Below the pieces are notes generated by a model that saw nothing but the letters and a program-made list of their open reading frames with translations, did not search any database and was not told where the DNA came from. A DNA stretch of 64,000 nucleotides from Breoghania corrubedonensis (GTDB lineage Bacteria > Pseudomonadota > Alphaproteobacteria > Rhizobiales > Stappiaceae), in contig NZ_QAYG01000009.1 of assembly GCF_003053845.1 (NCBI RefSeq), forward strand, positions 124,001-188,000, written 5' to 3'. This document shows, in pieces, positions 18,817-26,167 of this stretch. The stretch's first letter is position 1. Every line of letters starts with the position of its first letter. The position numbers and the translations under genes are program-made.

Positions 18817-20553
18817 TCAATAGGAGACGAGGGTCGTATCGCTGTCTTCGCTCATATGCGGCACCACACCGAGCATCGGCGCGATACGGGCAATGATCTT
18901 GGAGACAGTCGGCGCGGCGTTCATGCCGGCGGTCGCGTAGTATTTGCCTTCCTCCGGCTTCGGCTCATCCAGCACGACCAGAACGAGGTATTGCGGATCG
19001 TCCATCGGGAAGGCCGCCAGGAAGGAATTGCGGCGCCTGTCGTGGGCATAACGGCCGTCGACGACCTTGTCGGCCGTGCCGGTCTTGCCGCCGACCATGT
19101 AGCCGGCGACGCGCGCGTTCCTGCCCGAGCCCTCCACGGCGTTGAGCCGGAAAAGATATCGCATCATGTCGCTGACGCGCTTGGAGATCACGCGCTTGGC
19201 GCCCTTCGCGGCCTCGGTCGCGGTGCGCGGGAAGAAGGTCGGCTCGATGAGCATGCCGCCGTTGATGAGCGCGACGCCGGCCACGGCGGTCTGCATCGGC
19301 GACACGGAAATGCCGTGCCCATAGGAGGCCGTCATCGCGGTGATTTCACTCCACTTGCGCGGCAGCAACGGCGCGGCGACTTCCGGCAATTCGGTATCCA
19401 CCTTGTCCAGCAGGCCGATGCGCTTGAAGAACTTCTCCTGCTGGTCGATGCCCACATCGAGCGTCATCTTCGCCGTGCCGATGTTGGAGGAATGCACGAA
19501 GATCTCCGGCACCGTCAGGACGCGGCGCGTGCCGTGGAAGTCATGGATGGTGAAGCCGCCGATGCGGATGGGCTTGGTGGCGTCGTACTTGCTGTCGAGC
19601 GTCACCTTGCCGGAATCAAGCGCCATGGCGATGGAGAAACTCTTGAAGACGGAGCCCATCTCGTAGACGCCGGCCGTCGCCCGGTTGAGGTTTTCCGGCT
19701 TCAGCGCCTCGCCCGGATCGTTGGGGTCGTAGTCCGGCAGCGACGACATCGCCATCACCTCGCCGGTGTGAACGTCCAGCACGATGCCGACCGAGGCGAT
19801 CGCCTTGTAGCGCTCCATCGCCTTGCTGAGTTCGTCGCGCACGACATGCTGGACGCGCAGGTCCATCGACAGCCGGACCGGCTTCAGCGCCTGATCGGTC
19901 GCGAACCCGAAATGCTGGAGATCGGCGATGCCCTGTCCGTCCAGATATTTTTCCAGCCCGGCAATACCCTGCTCGTCCACATTGGCGATGCCGACGATGT
20001 GTCCCGCCGTCGGCCCGCCGGGATAGAAGCGGCGGTTTTCGGTCAGAAAGCCGATACCGGGAATGCCGAGACGGTGGATCGCCTCGCGCTGGAGCGGCGT
20101 GATCTCGCGCTTGAGCCAGATGAAGCCGGCATCGCTTTCCAGCCGCTTGCGCATCGCATCCGAACCGAGTTCGGGAAGCACGGAGGACAGCTTGTCGATC
20201 GCCTCGTCCACATCGACGATCTTGCGCGGTTCGGCATAGACCGAGGGCGCCTTGATGTCGGTGGCCAGCAACTCGCCGTTGCGGTCGACCAGATCGGGCC
20301 TTGCGGCGAGGATCGCCTGCTGCGCGCCGATATAACCCGATGACGACGTTTCGTCCGACATGCCGAGATCGATGAGCCGCAGCGCGATCAATCCATAAAG
20401 CAGCGCGAACACCGCCATGACCACGACCACCCGGCCCGGGGTGCCCGCATCCTCCGCCATGGAGCGGGAGACGACGGCCGAGACGCGCGGAGCCTGGGCG
20501 CGAGATCGGGCACTTGCGGCAAGCGGCGAGAAATCGCTGGCAGCGAGGGACAT
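18817..20553 (-). CDS. ftsI: Septal peptidoglycan transpeptidase (PBP3)
   Basis: FtsI cross-links septal peptidoglycan and works with FtsW. The 578 residues comprise a cytoplasmic tail, one membrane anchor (about 40-60), the PBP dimerisation domain and the transpeptidase. The active-site motifs are S301-VFK304, SSN (355-357) and KTGTA (490-494). GGAG lies 7 nt before ATG 20553. It follows ftsL on the same strand after an 82-nt gap. Confidence 0.97.
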   Translation of the reverse strand: MSLAASDFSPLAASARSRAQAPRVSAVVSRSMAEDAGTPGRVVVVMAVFALLYGLIALRLIDLGMSDETSSSGYIGAQQAILAARPDLVDRNGELLATDIKAPSVYAEPRKIVDVDEAIDKLSSVLPELGSDAMRKRLESDAGFIWLKREITPLQREAIHRLGIPGIGFLTENRRFYPGGPTAGHIVGIANVDEQGIAGLEKYLDGQGIADLQHFGFATDQALKPVRLSMDLRVQHVVRDELSKAMERYKAIASVGIVLDVHTGEVMAMSSLPDYDPNDPGEALKPENLNRATAGVYEMGSVFKSFSIAMALDSGKVTLDSKYDATKPIRIGGFTIHDFHGTRRVLTVPEIFVHSSNIGTAKMTLDVGIDQQEKFFKRIGLLDKVDTELPEVAAPLLPRKWSEITAMTASYGHGISVSPMQTAVAGVALINGGMLIEPTFFPRTATEAAKGAKRVISKRVSDMMRYLFRLNAVEGSGRNARVAGYMVGGKTGTADKVVDGRYAHDRRRNSFLAAFPMDDPQYLVLVVLDEPKPEEGKYYATAGMNAAPTVSKIIARIAPMLGVVPHMSEDSDTTLVSY

Positions 20554-20635
20554 CAGGAGGCTCCTTCGGGATGGACCGCCGCGATCAAGGCGGACCGGTG
20601 GCTCGTGAACAGGCTTGTGGCTGCGGCCGTGACCG

Positions 20636-20989
20636 CTATCGGATGACGGTGCCGCGCGCGGCGTAACCGCCCAGCGGATCGTTGCTGAACGGCGTGAACT
20701 GAATGGGTTTTGTCGGCAGATCGTTGATGGAGGCGATCTGCTTCACCTGAAGTGGCTCGAGATGGAGATAGGCGTTGTAGCGTTCCACCAGCCGCTGCAA
20801 TCGCGCGGGCTGGTTGAGCACGCTCCATTCCGCTTTCAGGAGGTCGATCTTGTCTTCCTCCTGCTCAATGGCGCGCTGCAGATGGGCCACCCGATCAGCG
20901 GCGTTCTCCGCGTTGTGCTTCATGTTGTAGACCACGGCCGCACCGACGATGACGGCAAGGATCAGCACGATGTTGAGGATACGAAACAC
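20636..20989 (-). CDS. ftsL: Cell division protein FtsL
   Basis: FtsL is a small bitopic protein that forms the FtsQLB subcomplex. The 117-residue product has a short cytoplasmic N-terminus, one transmembrane helix (LNIVLILAVIVGAAVVYNM) and a heptad-rich periplasmic coiled coil from about residue 30 to 70, the expected layout. The start codon is GTG, 6 nt after the rsmH stop; GGAGG lies within the end of rsmH. Sequence identity among FtsL proteins is low, so position between rsmH and ftsI carries much of the call. Confidence 0.9.
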   Translation of the reverse strand: MFRILNIVLILAVIVGAAVVYNMKHNAENAADRVAHLQRAIEQEEDKIDLLKAEWSVLNQPARLQRLVERYNAYLHLEPLQVKQIASINDLPTKPIQFTPFSNDPLGGYAARGTVIR

Positions 20990-20995
20990 GAGTTC

Positions 20996-22033
20996 TCAGC
21001 CTCCGAGCGTCTGAAACGTGGGCAGGTTGGGCGCACCGAGGTTTTCCCGCGCACCGTCGCGCGGCGGGTTCTCGGTTCGAATGCCGGCGCGAAGGCGCGC
21101 GGAACGGGCCCGCGGATTGGCGGCGACTTCCGCTTCCCCCGGCTCGACCGCGCCCTTGAGCGCGAAGGTGAAGGTCGGCGGCAGCACGTCCGCCTCCGGC
21201 AGGTGGCGCGAGCCGCCGGAATGGACACGGCAGCGCTCGGCCAGGAAGCGCTTGACGATGCGGTCTTCCAGCGAATGAAAGGTGACGACGGCGAGCCGCC
21301 CGCCGGGCTTCAGGCAGCGCTCGGCGGCGGCCAGAGCCTCCACGACCTCGCCAAGCTCGCTGTTGACGTAGATCCTGAGCGCCTGGAACGTCTTGGTGGC
21401 GGGATGCGTCGCCTTGCCGGGCTTGCGACCGATGGTGCGCTCTACCAGGTCGGCCAGTTCCAGCGTGCGGGAAAAGGGCTTCGTCTTGCGCGCCTCCTGA
21501 ATGGCGCGGGAAATCGCGGAGGCGCGTTTTTCCTCGCCCAGGATGCCGATGATGCGGGTGAGCTCGCGCCCGTCGATCTCGTTGACGACGTCGGCGGCGC
21601 TGGGGCCTGCCTGCTCCATGCGCATGTCGAGCGGGCCATCCTGGCGAAACGAGAAGCCGCGGTTCGCCTCGTCCACCTGCATGGAGGAGATGCCGAGATC
21701 GAGCACGACGCCGTCGACCAACAGTTGCCCGGCGCCCGCCGCATGGGTGTCGAGTTCGGAAAAGCGGCCGGGAACAAGCGTGAGGCGGCCTGAGAATTCG
21801 GCGACCATCGCCTGCCCGTCGCGGATGGCGTTGGGATCGCGGTCGACGGCGATGACGTTCGCGCCCGTACCCAGAATGGCACGCGTGTAGCCGCCGGCCC
21901 CGAACGTGCCGTCGACGATCGTCTCGCCCGCCTTCGGCTGAAGCGCGGCCAGCACCTCGTCGAGGAGAACGGGAATGTGGCGTGCCGGTCCGCCAGCGAC
22001 CGGGGGCTTGCCCCCTTCGCGACCCGCCATCAT
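20996..22033 (-). CDS. rsmH: 16S rRNA (cytosine-1402 N4)-methyltransferase RsmH (MraW)
   Basis: RsmH methylates N4 of C1402 in 16S rRNA using S-adenosylmethionine. The 345 residues show [13 protein letters not shown], the SAM-binding motif [39 protein letters not shown] and [13 protein letters not shown], all standard. The ATG at 22033 overlaps the mraZ stop as ATGA, so the two are translationally coupled; a second in-frame ATG follows immediately. The open frame extends to 22834 but that part is inside mraZ and the leader. Confidence 0.97.
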
Positions 22034-22533
22034 CCCGTACTCCCCGAAGGTGTGGCCGAAAGCGTGGATGCTCCGGCGGGCTGAGCCGCAGACTGGGGCT
22101 CGCCGGAAAGAACCTCCAGCGCACGCCTCAGCGCCTCCGCACGATGTTCGGCGAAGCGTTCCGGGTTCCACATCTGAAACTTGTATCCCTGTCCGACGAA
22201 GGTCACCTGGTCCGTAATGCCTGCATGCAGCCTGAGCGTTTCCGGCAGAATGACCCGCCCGTCGCTGTCGAGCTTGAGGTTCTCCGACACGCCGAAGAGC
22301 GCCATCGAGACGAAATCGTGCTGCGGGGTGAGCGTGGTGAAACTGTCGACGCGCTTCTGGATCTCGCCGAGCAGCGCATTGCCGCCCGCATCCACCGCCG
22401 GCAGATGGGCGGAGGGGAAGCAGTAGACACCCTCGTAGTTCTCGCGCGAGAGCGCGGCGCGAAACGGCGCGGGCACGGAAACGCGCCCCTTGGCGTCCAG
22501 CCGATTTGTGAAGTTCGACACGAAGTCGGCCAT
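22030..22533 (-). CDS. mraZ: Transcriptional regulator MraZ
   Basis: MraZ is an AbrB-like DNA-binding protein that regulates its own dcw operon. The 167 residues contain two SpoVT/AbrB-type repeats: residues 6-50 with [14 protein letters not shown], and about 80-125 with [20 protein letters not shown] Ser/Ala/Pro-rich tail follows. It is the first gene of the cluster, about 290 nt downstream of a decameric repeat array that may be its operator. The start [17 protein letters not shown] is typical of the family. Confidence 0.95.
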
Positions 22534-23116
22534 TCATCGCCTCGCCCCTCGCACAAGCCAACCGTGTGCGAATCCATGCCGCAGCCCATACGATCCCGGC
22601 CGGCACATCCATTCGTGACCGCCGCTGCGGCCGATCTCGTGACAAGTCCCCGCCTCCGTGCGCAAAACGGACGTGTAACCGCGATACCGAAGCGCTGTAA
22701 CGCCCCGCCCGGACACGCCTCGCGAGACCTGCGGACACAGACGTCCGCACCCGGTTTCGCGCAGTATTCAGCGGTTTTGCAGGCCCCGTTTCGGCAACGG
22801 CTCTTCTCTCAGCCGGGATAATATGGGATATCATGGGCGATCACGGGCGTCAATGGAACGGACATGGATGTTCAGGCTCGATCCCCCCGGACCAAGGCGA
22901 TTTAAACCTCATTAGGCTTAACGGCGCGTTGCCATCCCGGCCTCGCCGACGGGCCAGGCGGCTTGCGATAAATCATGGTTAACAAATGGTTTTCATCCAC
23001 CCGGCACAGGGCGCGCGAATGGTTCGGCGCGCGAGCCGCGCGCGCACGGCGCCGGTAACGGCGCGCTTGCGCCTGCGGCGGCGCGTCACAACCGGGTGTG
23101 GAAAAGGTGGAAAGGT
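22534..23116. other. Non-coding gap between rnpB and mraZ
   Basis: No gene is supported in these 583 bases. The part nearest mraZ forms a leader of about 290 nt. At 22814-22858 lies the decameric repeat array with an embedded promoter-like sequence. The stretch 22870-23116 is the region downstream of rnpB. It has several GCGC-rich inverted repeats, but no clean terminator with a T-run was found. Confidence 0.6.
22814..22858 (-). promoter_or_regulatory. Decameric repeat array and promoter of mraZ (putative MraZ operator)
   Basis: On the plus strand the pentamers CGGGA, TGGGA, TGGGC, CGGGC and TGGAA start at 22814, 22824, 22834, 22844 and 22854, exactly 10 nt apart. In E. coli MraZ binds TGGGN repeats separated by 5 nt in front of mraZ, the same period. 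On the minus strand a TTGACG (22848-22853) and TATCCC (22825-22830) spaced 17 nt apart lie inside the array and could be the -35 and -10 boxes, fitting autorepression. The repeat orientation relative to mraZ and the 290-nt distance are caveats. Confidence 0.6.
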
Positions 23117-23517
23117 GCCAGTCGGCCTGTAAGCCGGGTTCTGTTCGGCGGGCGAACCCGCCGCGACGACCATTCATCTGGGACGTCCGTTACCGGACGC
23201 CTCGCGCGACCTACCCGGACGGTCAACGTGAAAACACGCCTGGGAGTTGCCTCCCGCGCCGTCCCTATTCGGTCTTGCTCCCGGTGGGGTTTACCATGCC
23301 GGCCCCGTTGCCGGGACCGCGGTGGGCTCTTACCCCACCCTTTCACCCTTACCTGCGCGCCCCCTTGCGGGTTTTGAGCAGGCGGTTTGCTTTCTGCGGC
23401 ACTTTCCCTGAGGTCGCCCTCGCCGGGCGTTACCCGGCACCGTGTTTCCATGGAGCCCGGACTTTCCTCCCCCGCCGCCTTTCAGCGCTTGCGGGAGCGG
23501 TCGTCCAGCCGACTGGC
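23117..23517 (-). ncRNA. rnpB: RNase P RNA (class A)
   Basis: RNase P RNA is the catalytic subunit that matures tRNA 5' ends. Read on the minus strand, the terminal pairing GCCAGTCGG at the 5' end matches CCGACTGGC at the 3' end. Conserved core blocks follow: GAGGAAAGTCCGGGCTCCATG (CR-I) early, GAAAGTGCCGCAGAAAGCAAACC, the TAAGGGTGAAAGGGTGGGGTAAGAGCCC region, and near the 3' end GGCTTACAGGCC. The length of about 400 nt is normal for alphaproteobacteria. Ends are set by the P1 helix and are accurate to a few bases. Confidence 0.97.
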
Positions 23518-23523
23518 ACGCCG

Positions 23524-23552
23524 TGAGTAGGGACCGCGGCAGACAAAATCAA
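23524..23552 (-). promoter_or_regulatory. Promoter of rnpB
   Basis: On the minus strand TTGATT (23547-23552) and TACTCA (23524-23529) are separated by exactly 17 nt, and the predicted start falls about 7 nt later at the first rnpB base. This is a good housekeeping-sigma spacing, although the -10 box is not perfect. Confidence 0.55.
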
Positions 23553-23597
23553 GGCCGGACAGCATCGCGGCCCGGCCTCATACGCTTTTATGTGATC

Positions 23598-23644
23598 GAG
23601 CCCCGGTCCGCACACGCCCCTGCGGGCGGCCGAAACCGGGGCTC
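23598..23644 (-). terminator. Hairpin terminator after the lytic transglycosylase gene
   Basis: Perfect 10-bp arms GAGCCCCGGT (23598-23607) and ACCGGGGCTC (23635-23644) enclose a loop that has its own small GC hairpin. The arm lies 10 nt beyond the gene stop. A second stem AGGCCGG/CCGGCCT followed by TTGATTTTG lies just after it and could also stop transcription before rnpB. Confidence 0.55.
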
Positions 23645-23654
23645 TCATGTCGCC

Positions 23655-24209
23655 TCAAACGACATCGCCCAGCAGGGCGATCACCCGGTGGCAGTATCGC
23701 TTGCTCACCGGATTCATGTGCCGCGCATAGTGCCCGGCATTGTAGCGCAGAACGGTGCCGCAGGTATCGCCGGAGGCGAGCTGGTGCGCCTTGGCCAGAT
23801 ACCGCATGCCCCATTCCAGATTTGTCGCCGGATCGTAGAGCGCCTTGACGGACCCGCGATAGCCGATGCCGCGCGCGGTTGCGGGCTTGATCTGCATCAG
23901 CCCGATCTCGCCATGCGACCCGCGCGCCCGGGCGTTGAAGTTGCTCTCGATCCTGACGATGGCCTTGGCGAGGCTGACCGGCACGCCATGCTTGCGCGCA
24001 GCCGCCGAGATCAGGGCCGAATACCTGCCGTTGCCGCGCTCCTTGACCTCTCCCCCATCATCTTCCTCGACCGAGGTCTTTTCGAAATGCGCCTGATAGG
24101 CCCTGAGCGCGGCCAGAGGACCGCTGCCGTTACCCGCCATTGCCGGCATGTTCGTCATGAAAGCCCCCGTCGCCACGACCAGGGCGACCCAAAGTGCACG
24201 TCCCTTCAT
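23655..24209 (-). CDS. Lytic transglycosylase, SLT domain
   Basis: This is a secreted peptidoglycan-cleaving enzyme that breaks the MurNAc-GlcNAc bond with anhydro product formation. The 184-residue protein has an N-terminal signal peptide (residues 1-25, ending in a PAMA-G type site). The SLT (lysozyme-like) domain has the catalytic Glu in RIESNFNARARG, the GEIGLMQIKPATARGIGY motif and the RYNAGHYARHM signature. It is smaller than Slt70 or MltE-type proteins and probably free in the periplasm, since no lipobox is seen. It stands alone, with long gaps on both sides. Confidence 0.9.
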   Translation of the reverse strand: MKGRALWVALVVATGAFMTNMPAMAGNGSGPLAALRAYQAHFEKTSVEEDDGGEVKERGNGRYSALISAAARKHGVPVSLAKAIVRIESNFNARARGSHGEIGLMQIKPATARGIGYRGSVKALYDPATNLEWGMRYLAKAHQLASGDTCGTVLRYNAGHYARHMNPVSKRYCHRVIALLGDVV

Positions 24210-24734
24210 TCGAATTGTTTACCCGTTCTCTTGTTGAAGAAGGGCGGGGGTATGACGATGGGAACCGACCAAAATCGGACCGGCCAAATCACGAATTGTT
24301 ACGGAAAACCTGCGAAAAACCGGGATTTTTGGGGTTGAAATCGGGGAATTGGGCAGCAAACTGACGAAGGGTGACGAGACCTTGGGCTTGATGTGAAGGA
24401 ACCGTGACGACAATCGGGCACACCCCATCGCACCGTGACCGCCCACAGCGCCATGAACCGACCGATCGCGCGCGGATACGGCTTCGCCACGCATTGCAGA
24501 CAACACCGGTTTCGCCGCTTTGGTTCCGCATTTGGGAGGTTTTGTAATTCGGGCGACGGGACACAGGCGTTAGGCAAAGGTTAACGTTAAGCGCAGGTGA
24601 ACGGCCGATCGGCGGAAATCCGGGCAATGACGGTGGTGAGTTTATCGCTAGGCGGCGAAGAGGCATGGTGACGGGCCGCGTTCGGGTTCTCACGTCCCGG
24701 CGTTCATTGTGCGCAGGAGCCCCCGGAGCGCGCG
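24210..24734. other. Non-coding gap upstream of the transglycosylase
   Basis: No gene is supported in these 525 bases. Local A/T content is higher around 24280-24360. The motif TTAG-N7-TTAA at 24570-24584 differs in one base from the CtrA consensus TTAA-N7-TTAA and is followed by CGTTAA. It may be part of the promoter region of the minus-strand transglycosylase gene, about 360 nt upstream. Nothing else stands out. Confidence 0.4.
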
Positions 24735-25478
24735 CTACCGTTTCAGCGTCGTCAGCAACCGATGGAGCGTCGTGATGGTGGAGGCGTCGGCCACGCCGTC
24801 CACCTTCATCGGGCGGAAATGGCGCTGGAACGCCTCGACCACCGTCATCGTCTCGGCGTCATAGGCCCCCGTGACCGGCACCTTGTAGCCATAGAGCGAC
24901 AGCATGGTCTGCAACGCCTCCACCGGCTGGCCGATGGCGCCTTGCTGCAGGAAGCGGCCCGAGGCGATCTCTTCCGGCTCGACCCAGTGGCCGACGCCGG
25001 CGGACGCAAGCCGCGCCCAGGGGAACTTCTCGCCCGGATCGATCTTGCGCCCCGGCGCCACGTCGGAATGGGCAAGCACCCGCTCTGCCCGGATCGAACG
25101 GCGGCGGACGATATCGAGACAAAGCGCCGTTACCGCATCTATCTGCGCGTCGGGGAATGCCTGGTAGCCGTACTGGTGGCCACGGTTGACGATCTCGATG
25201 CCGATGGAACGGGAATTGATATCCTCCTCGCCCGCCCAGAATGCCGCGCCCGCATGCCAGGCGCGCTGCTCTTCGGCCACCATCTGGACGATGCGTCCGT
25301 CCTCGTGAACGAGGTAGTGGGCAGAGACCTCCGCCGCCGGATCGCAAAGACGGGCCAGCGCATGCTCGGCGCTCTCCATTCCGGTATAGTGGAGGAGCAG
25401 CATGTCGAGCGGCCCCTTGCGCGCGCCGTGATTGGGCGAGGCCGCGACTTCGCCTGCCAGCGGCGTATCGGCTTTCAT
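24735..25478 (-). CDS. N-acetylmuramoyl-L-alanine amidase (AmpD-like) with peptidoglycan-binding domain
   Basis: The enzyme splits the bond between MurNAc (or anhydroMurNAc) and L-alanine in wall fragments. The 247 residues have an amidase_2 domain with zinc-ligand motifs LLHYTGM (His) and HSDVAPGRKIDPGEKFPW (His and Asp), plus SIGIEIVNRGH. It is followed by a C-terminal peptidoglycan-binding_1 domain (VEALQTMLSLYGYKVPVTGAYDAETMTVVEAFQRHF). No signal peptide is seen, so a cytosolic recycling role is likely. Its ATG 25478 overlaps the stop of the upstream J-domain gene as TGATG, giving translational coupling. Confidence 0.92.
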   Translation of the reverse strand: MKADTPLAGEVAASPNHGARKGPLDMLLLHYTGMESAEHALARLCDPAAEVSAHYLVHEDGRIVQMVAEEQRAWHAGAAFWAGEEDINSRSIGIEIVNRGHQYGYQAFPDAQIDAVTALCLDIVRRRSIRAERVLAHSDVAPGRKIDPGEKFPWARLASAGVGHWVEPEEIASGRFLQQGAIGQPVEALQTMLSLYGYKVPVTGAYDAETMTVVEAFQRHFRPMKVDGVADASTITTLHRLLTTLKR

Positions 25479-26167
25479 CAAATTCCCCGTTCCAGAGAGA
25501 CCTGCCGCCATGCCTCGTTGAGCGCGGCCATGCGATCGTTGGCGATGCGCACGAATTCCTCCGGCACACCGCGCGCGATCAGCCGGTCGGGATGGCTTTC
25601 GGTGACCTGCCGGCGGTATTGCCGCTTGACCTCCGCATCGCTCGCGGAACGCTCGATGCCGAGCACCTTGTAGGGGTCTGCCCCATCGATGACATGGCGC
25701 GCGCGGATCTGCTGAAAGCAGCGCTCCTCGATCGAGAAGATCTCCGCCACGCGTTCCAGATAGGCAAGCTCCGCCTCATGGACGTAACCATCCGCCTTGG
25801 CGATGTGGAAGAGCCCGTCGAGGATATCGATCAGCGTTTCCGGCTGCTCGGTGAAGAGAGAAGCGATGCGCCTTGCGTAGGTCTCGAAACCGGCCACGTC
25901 CTGCTTGGCGAGATCGAAGACGCGCGCGACGTTGCGCTCCTCACCCGGGGGAATGTCGAACAGGCTGAAGAAGGCGATTTCCTCGTCGCTCGTCACAACA
26001 CCATCGGCTTTGGCCATCTTCGCCGAAAGCGCGATCATGGCGGCGGAGAACGCGAACGTGTTGCGCGCCTCGCCGCCACCGACGAGGTTCGCGATACGAT
26101 CGAAAAGCTGGGCACCGCTCGCCTGAATGGCGGAGGCGACGGCGGCAAGGGTGGACCAGAGACTCAT
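25478..26167 (-). CDS. TerB-like and J-domain protein (DjlA-like)
   Basis: The 229-residue protein has a TerB/DjlA-type helical domain (about 40-155, with AKMAKADGVVTSDEE and AKADGYVHEAELAYLERV acidic metal-binding-like loops) and a C-terminal J domain (165-229) with the HPD motif in TESHPDRLIARG. J domains stimulate DnaK ATPase. E. coli DjlA has a membrane anchor; no clear one is present here, so the protein may be soluble or peripheral. It is coupled to the amidase gene downstream. Confidence 0.88.
   Translation of the reverse strand: MSLWSTLAAVASAIQASGAQLFDRIANLVGGGEARNTFAFSAAMIALSAKMAKADGVVTSDEEIAFFSLFDIPPGEERNVARVFDLAKQDVAGFETYARRIASLFTEQPETLIDILDGLFHIAKADGYVHEAELAYLERVAEIFSIEERCFQQIRARHVIDGADPYKVLGIERSASDAEVKRQYRRQVTESHPDRLIARGVPEEFVRIANDRMAALNEAWRQVSLERGI

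Follow-up and report, generated by a model that had tools for sequence, protein, structure and literature searches.

The mraZ locus in the window

In the window, the stretch of 64,000 nucleotides from Breoghania corrubedonensis that was analyzed here, mraZ, rsmH (mraW) and a gene for an FtsI-type penicillin-binding protein are read from the minus strand, and the RNase P RNA is their upstream neighbor (Table 1). A small open reading frame that follows rsmH has no Pfam match and is placed as ftsL by position only. The 167-residue product of mraZ is 27% identical to E. coli MraZ, matches PF02381, contains two DxxxR motifs and, in a predicted structure with a mean pLDDT of 87, has the MraZ fold; its best structure matches include M. 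genitalium MraZ, alone and promoter-bound (9r4j, 9sz7).

From a start site predicted 7 nt past the -10 element, the transcript would begin with a leader of about 284 nt. No fold beyond chance was found in the leader (22534-22818; z +1.0), no terminator on the leader (minus) strand of the window, and no Rfam match within 20000-26000 besides that to RNase P; these results lend no support to the window leader as a structured RNA or an UpsM-like attenuator.

Table 1. Genes, promoter elements and proposed operator boxes at the mraZ locus (positions in the window)
Feature	Position	Strand	Basis
ftsI-type penicillin-binding protein	18817..20553	-	Pfam profile
Small ORF in ftsL position, name by position only	20636..20989	-	no Pfam match
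rsmH (mraW), second gene of the cluster	20996..21985	-	Methyltransf_5, E 2.1e-89
mraZ, 167 aa, both DxxxR motifs (DAKGR, DSDGR)	22030..22533	-	PF02381 match, sequence, model
Predicted mraZ leader, about 284 nt	22534..22817	-	predicted start 7 nt past -10
Proposed MraZ operator, five-box 10-bp array	22814..22858	-	sequence, chance test, conservation
Box 5, TCCCG (CGGGA on +), at predicted start site	22814..22818	-	sequence, conservation
Box 4, TCCCA (TGGGA on +), CCC being the final three bases of the -10 hexamer	22824..22828	-	sequence, conservation
Extended -10, TGA TATCCC (hexamer 22830-22825), 17 nt from -35, no T at -7	22825..22833	-	sequence, conservation
Box 3, GCCCA (TGGGC on +), within spacer, adjoining TG of the extended -10	22834..22838	-	sequence, conservation
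Box 2, GCCCG (CGGGC on +), sharing the last -35 base	22844..22848	-	sequence, conservation
-35 element, TTGACG	22848..22853	-	sequence; TTGAC outside search anchor
Box 1, TTCCA (TGGAA on +), immediately 5' of -35, often degenerate	22854..22858	-	sequence, loci counts
RNase P RNA (rnpB), upstream neighbor	23114..23516	-	Rfam match

Five boxes and embedded promoter elements

Upstream of mraZ, five pentamers follow one another at a period of exactly 10 nt, and direct reading of the sequence bears out the coordinates given for them in an initial annotation, which had taken the array for a MraZ operator with an embedded promoter. On the mraZ strand the array reads TTCCA TTGAC GCCCG TGATC GCCCA TGATA TCCCA TATTA TCCCG, and it contains, as had also been proposed, TTGACG and TATCCC 17 nt apart. 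This pair, with TGn ahead of the hexamer, has the spacing of sigma-70 -35 and -10 elements. The boxes of the window are imperfect, with CGGG twice and TGGA once, and the array contains ATGGG twice and GTGG nowhere.

A generic sigma-70 scan of 22500-23150 returned no promoter, because it demands T at the last -10 position, which TATCCC lacks. Absence of this T, together with dependence on CarD, is common among alphaproteobacterial promoters. The genome of B. corrubedonensis has two PF02559 matches, one in an open frame of 206 residues and one in a frame of 1171 residues, which fit CarD and Mfd, respectively.

Within the 64-kb window, the pattern YGGR repeated five times at period 10 has one match, and it appeared in 0 of 100 dinucleotide-preserving shuffles. 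For searches of other sequences a core of 16 letters as read on the mraZ strand, CCCAN6CCCANGNTATCCCA, was used with a mismatch limit; at up to one mismatch, it occurs a single time in the B. corrubedonensis genome. A second block (TTAAGCCTAATGARGTTTAAATCGC..TTGGTCCGGGGGATCGAGCCTG) lies 5' of the -35 element, at 22870-22925 of the window, and is near-identical at positions 2100-2180 of one related locus (L003).

Conservation in the order

Searches detected mraZ in each of the 61 family genomes and in 102 of the 150 order genomes. Searches of the latter set with the core (up to one mismatch) gave 88 matches in 80 genomes and none with a reversed control. All except two of these matches (86/88) lie on the mraZ strand, 32-331 nt upstream of mraZ (median 171), the two others being in a genome in which no mraZ was found (G137) and on another contig of G163. 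Counted by genome, the core precedes mraZ in 79 of the 102 that have the gene. Among the other 23, 19 fetched regions all match a weight matrix, at 8.0-55.4 bits with L098 as the weak one, the largest shuffle value being 4.7; three more (L037, L038 and L051) were read directly, and the contig of G204 was too short. The fetched region L109 (161 bases) was left out of the scoring. Overall, nearly every examined related genome with mraZ carries the same arrangement, in which TGGG-core repeats spaced at 10 nt accompany the gene on its upstream side.

The weight matrix and an alignment were built from 39 non-redundant loci of 53, with the window, L003 and L004 left out. Information in the aligned loci is high in the array block, with the majority sequence TTCCATTGACGCCCATGnnnTCCCATGnTATCCCATATnnTCCCG, and low in the flanks, the core letters being conditioned because the alignment was anchored on the core. 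Of 75 order loci, a set that includes the window, 72 have the -35 sequence TTGAC, which lies outside the anchor, and the spacer between -35 and -10 is 16-18 nt in 75/75. TG stands one base before the -10 hexamer in 68/75 of these loci and in 70/77 loci of the wider class (its G and most of the hexamer lie inside the anchor), and the last -10 base, with position -7 likewise part of the anchor, is C in 74/75 and 76/77, respectively. Box 5, also outside the anchor, is conserved, with at least three of four letters kept in 65/75 order and 59/77 class loci. Box 1 is often degenerate, at least three of the four letters of CCCA being kept in 43/75 and 36/77. Relatives fill between two and five of the five box positions, most often four or five. 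These counts support the reading of the array as a MraZ operator: the array is conserved and linked to mraZ, and in most relatives a TTGAC-17/18-TAT promoter lies within it.

A separate observation concerns the surroundings of box 1. GANTC, the sequence methylated by CcrM, lies within or alongside box 1, adjacent to the -35 element, in 30 of 75 order loci from eight families (GATTC in 26 and GAATC in 4; for example, L006, L008, L035, L037, L056 and L058), and it is absent in the window. It is found in 1 of 77 class loci, and its background frequency is 1.7% of 15-mers (136/7911). Since the loci are related, the underlying events are fewer than the locus counts.

Searches found no mraZ in 48 of the 150 order genomes, whereas rsmH was found in 147 of 150; a recheck with the Pfam model was also negative in G082, G095, G101, G170, G174, G200 and G203. 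Three families (f28, f36 and f42) contain genomes with and without the gene. The array was found in 0 of 40 regions upstream of rsmH in mraZ-negative genomes, none of which scored above -10.6 bits; these 40 come from the 48 such genomes, the others having an absent, split, weak or unfetched rsmH, and the region of L143 is short. Because array and gene adjoin, one deletion could remove both, and their joint loss is supporting rather than decisive evidence for a link between them.

Breadth and orientation across the class and phylum

Outside the families of the order, 80 regions from the same class (76 from one placement set and 4 from a second) were searched, and 68 contain the core with at most two mismatches and 77 with at most four; no clear array was seen in the remaining loci of this set, L226, L246 and L258. 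TTGAC is present in 53 of the 77. Comparison with related genomes thus finds the 10-nt array at mraZ conserved across both order and class.

Two features emerged that go beyond the initial annotation, namely the direction of the boxes, which lie on the -35 and -10 elements and face opposite to those of E. coli, and the base that precedes TGGG, which is mostly A. In 30 loci of the phylum outside the class, array scores favor TGGG on the coding strand in 26 and on the opposite strand in 1 (L176), with 3 ties; taken individually, many of the short arrays do not beat shuffles. In these loci and in E. coli, GTGGG boxes are found between mraZ and a preceding -10-like sequence, whereas the coding-strand boxes of the present class have the sequence CCCAT and coincide with the -35 element, the extended -10 and the predicted start site. 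When paired exact boxes only are counted, and loci without a parsed N-terminus are left out, the base before TGGG is A in 123/172 boxes of the order and 154/208 of the class, and G in 39/40 coding-strand boxes of the phylum loci and E. coli. Judged from sequence, the box in this class is reversed relative to transcription and placed on the predicted core promoter. An R/V change in the N-terminus of MraZ that would track the change from GTG to ATG was considered and dropped, because family f70 has FRG and still has ATGGG.

Comparison with known MraZ systems

The published background on MraZ and UpsM used here comes from passages of the open literature (PMC5089854, PMC7761207, PMC8475190, PMC2704228, PMC4414408, PMC8959179, PMC5282649, PMC5138195, PMC13031359). 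Within this open literature, control by MraZ is described in E. coli, Burkholderia, Corynebacterium and mycoplasmas only. Searches of the open-access literature turned up no description of an alphaproteobacterial MraZ operator.

As the initial annotation had pointed out, the 10-nt period of the array is that of the E. coli MraZ sites, and the sites of Burkholderia and Mollicutes share it. The E. coli Pmra promoter resembles the window in that direct repeats with a TGGG core, spaced at 10 nt, precede mraZ and adjoin a TTGACA promoter. However, Pmra has three boxes, which on the coding strand are GTGGG and follow the -10 element, whereas the window has five, which are CCCA or CCCG on that strand and extend from 5' of the -35 element to the predicted start; neither the G before TGG that gives the GTG core nor repeats downstream of the -10 in operon orientation are found here. 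In Burkholderia cenocepacia, PmraBc contains four 7-nt repeats with 3-nt spacing on a fragment from upstream of mraZ that MraZ binds in EMSA, but, as in E. coli, these repeats are positioned 3' of the -10, where they overlap the start site. The Mollicutes site, (AAAGTGKN3)3, which is joined by the cryo-EM structures of M. genitalium MraZ on its promoter (9r4j, 9sz7), likewise presents 10-nt repeats bound by a MraZ oligomer, but it has a GTG core in another sequence context. The proposed operator is of a known kind, MraZ boxes 5' of mraZ, and differs in orientation, in position on the promoter and in flanking base.

A possible UpsM promoter

According to the published work on UpsM, the UpsM promoter is the sole source of mraZ transcription in R. 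sphaeroides, with a mapped leader of 268 nt, and upstream fragments of mraZ with a length of 188 or 67 nt are without activity. UpsM itself, described as the most abundant sRNA of R. sphaeroides, is a 206-nt sRNA released at a terminator, and the long leader with a terminator is regarded there as exclusive to Rhodobacteraceae. A term search of the UpsM paper gave no mention of MraZ binding, direct repeats or TGGG. A promoter far upstream of mraZ is common to R. sphaeroides (268 nt) and the window (about 284 nt predicted), but the terminator and special fold are not found in the window leader.

One family (f70), which we infer to be the Rhodobacteraceae, has the array at a matching place. Its array is degenerate, with the majority sequence GTTGnTTnCCATGAATTCCCATGnCATCCCT. 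From the best array site, leaders of 240-282 nt are predicted in the 24 of 30 loci that have at most four mismatches to the core; the other 6 have five or six mismatches to the anchor, and their leaders, 84 and 315 nt among them, are unreliable. A hairpin with a T-run lies 193-218 nt from the predicted start in 19 of 30 loci. The agreement of these predictions with 268 and 206 nt points to this element as the UpsM promoter, and in sequence the array appears to be the promoter of an UpsM-like leader in f70. As an observation in its own right, the f70 loci (L262-L291) have a conserved mraZ leader (CAGGTTTCATACAGGC ... CCCCCCAGGTGGCGCGCGCA) with a late hairpin, which fits UpsM. Two f70 loci, L254 (1-500) and L255 (turned, 1-500), carry extra TGGGA-type repeats on the coding strand (for example, TGGGATTTCATGGGC), some hundred bases 5' of the promoter array and facing the opposite way.

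Proposed mechanism and alternatives

The array is very probably a MraZ operator that serves autoregulation and coincides with the dcw promoter. It would be a class-specific form of a known system: MraZ would bind the boxes, the promoter would fire and repression would be the outcome. With a 10-bp lattice all boxes fall on the same face of the DNA, which is what binding by a MraZ ring would require, and an oligomeric ring may contact consecutive boxes along that face. With boxes 1 to 5 occupied, the DNA from the -35 element to the predicted start would be covered and RNA polymerase excluded. Since the boxes and the promoter elements (-35, extended -10 and predicted start) are interleaved, bound MraZ and RNA polymerase would be mutually exclusive, and rising MraZ would turn off mraZ, rsmH, ftsI and later genes. 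TATCCC could be understood as a compromise, its first half serving sigma with the help of the upstream TGn and its second half serving as operator. Points that count against this reading include the imperfect boxes of the window, the three class loci that lack a clear array, the activating role described for MraZ in mycoplasmas and the core itself, since GTG, which is said to be conserved among distant species, is mostly ATG in this class.

Repression is deduced from the geometry together with the repression by MraZ reported in E. coli. It is unlikely that MraZ binds here but activates, or acts both ways depending on occupancy. Activation by MraZ has been described in mycoplasmas, and five boxes permit partial occupancy; however, the boxes span the region between the -35 and the predicted start, where steric repression usually acts, and the E. 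coli protein represses.

We regard as quite improbable the reading in which the block is a conserved dcw promoter and nothing else, its repeats being read by RNA polymerase or by another regulator rather than by MraZ. TTGAC and TGnTAT are indeed among the most conserved letters, and loss of the promoter accompanies loss of mraZ, as would follow from one deletion. Yet box 5 and the CCC of the -10, which would be useless to a sigma-70 promoter, are conserved (65/75 for the box and 74/75 for C at -7), the 10-nt TGGG lattice is a known MraZ signature, and copies away from mraZ make up only 2 of 88. Finally, chance periodicity, for which a GC-rich region with its common short G-runs might have been blamed, is refuted by the shuffles and by class-wide conservation at one gene.

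Significance

Returning to the MraZ operator, we lean slightly towards a wider view in which, in Alphaproteobacteria, the dcw promoter and the MraZ operator would be one object, a 10-bp ATGGG lattice, reversed relative to that of E. coli, which supplies half of the -10 element, so that repressor and polymerase would compete for the same bases. The UpsM of R. sphaeroides would then be made from a MraZ-controlled promoter, and GANTC in box 1 would offer a possible CcrM input in many genomes of the order.

MraZ heads one of the best conserved bacterial gene clusters, and the array provides a concrete, testable candidate operator across an entire class, to which major cell-cycle models belong. The array also suggests that an operator may change direction and shift onto the core promoter with no change in its gene or its 10-nt spacing. 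In addition, it makes MraZ a candidate regulator for the UpsM promoter.
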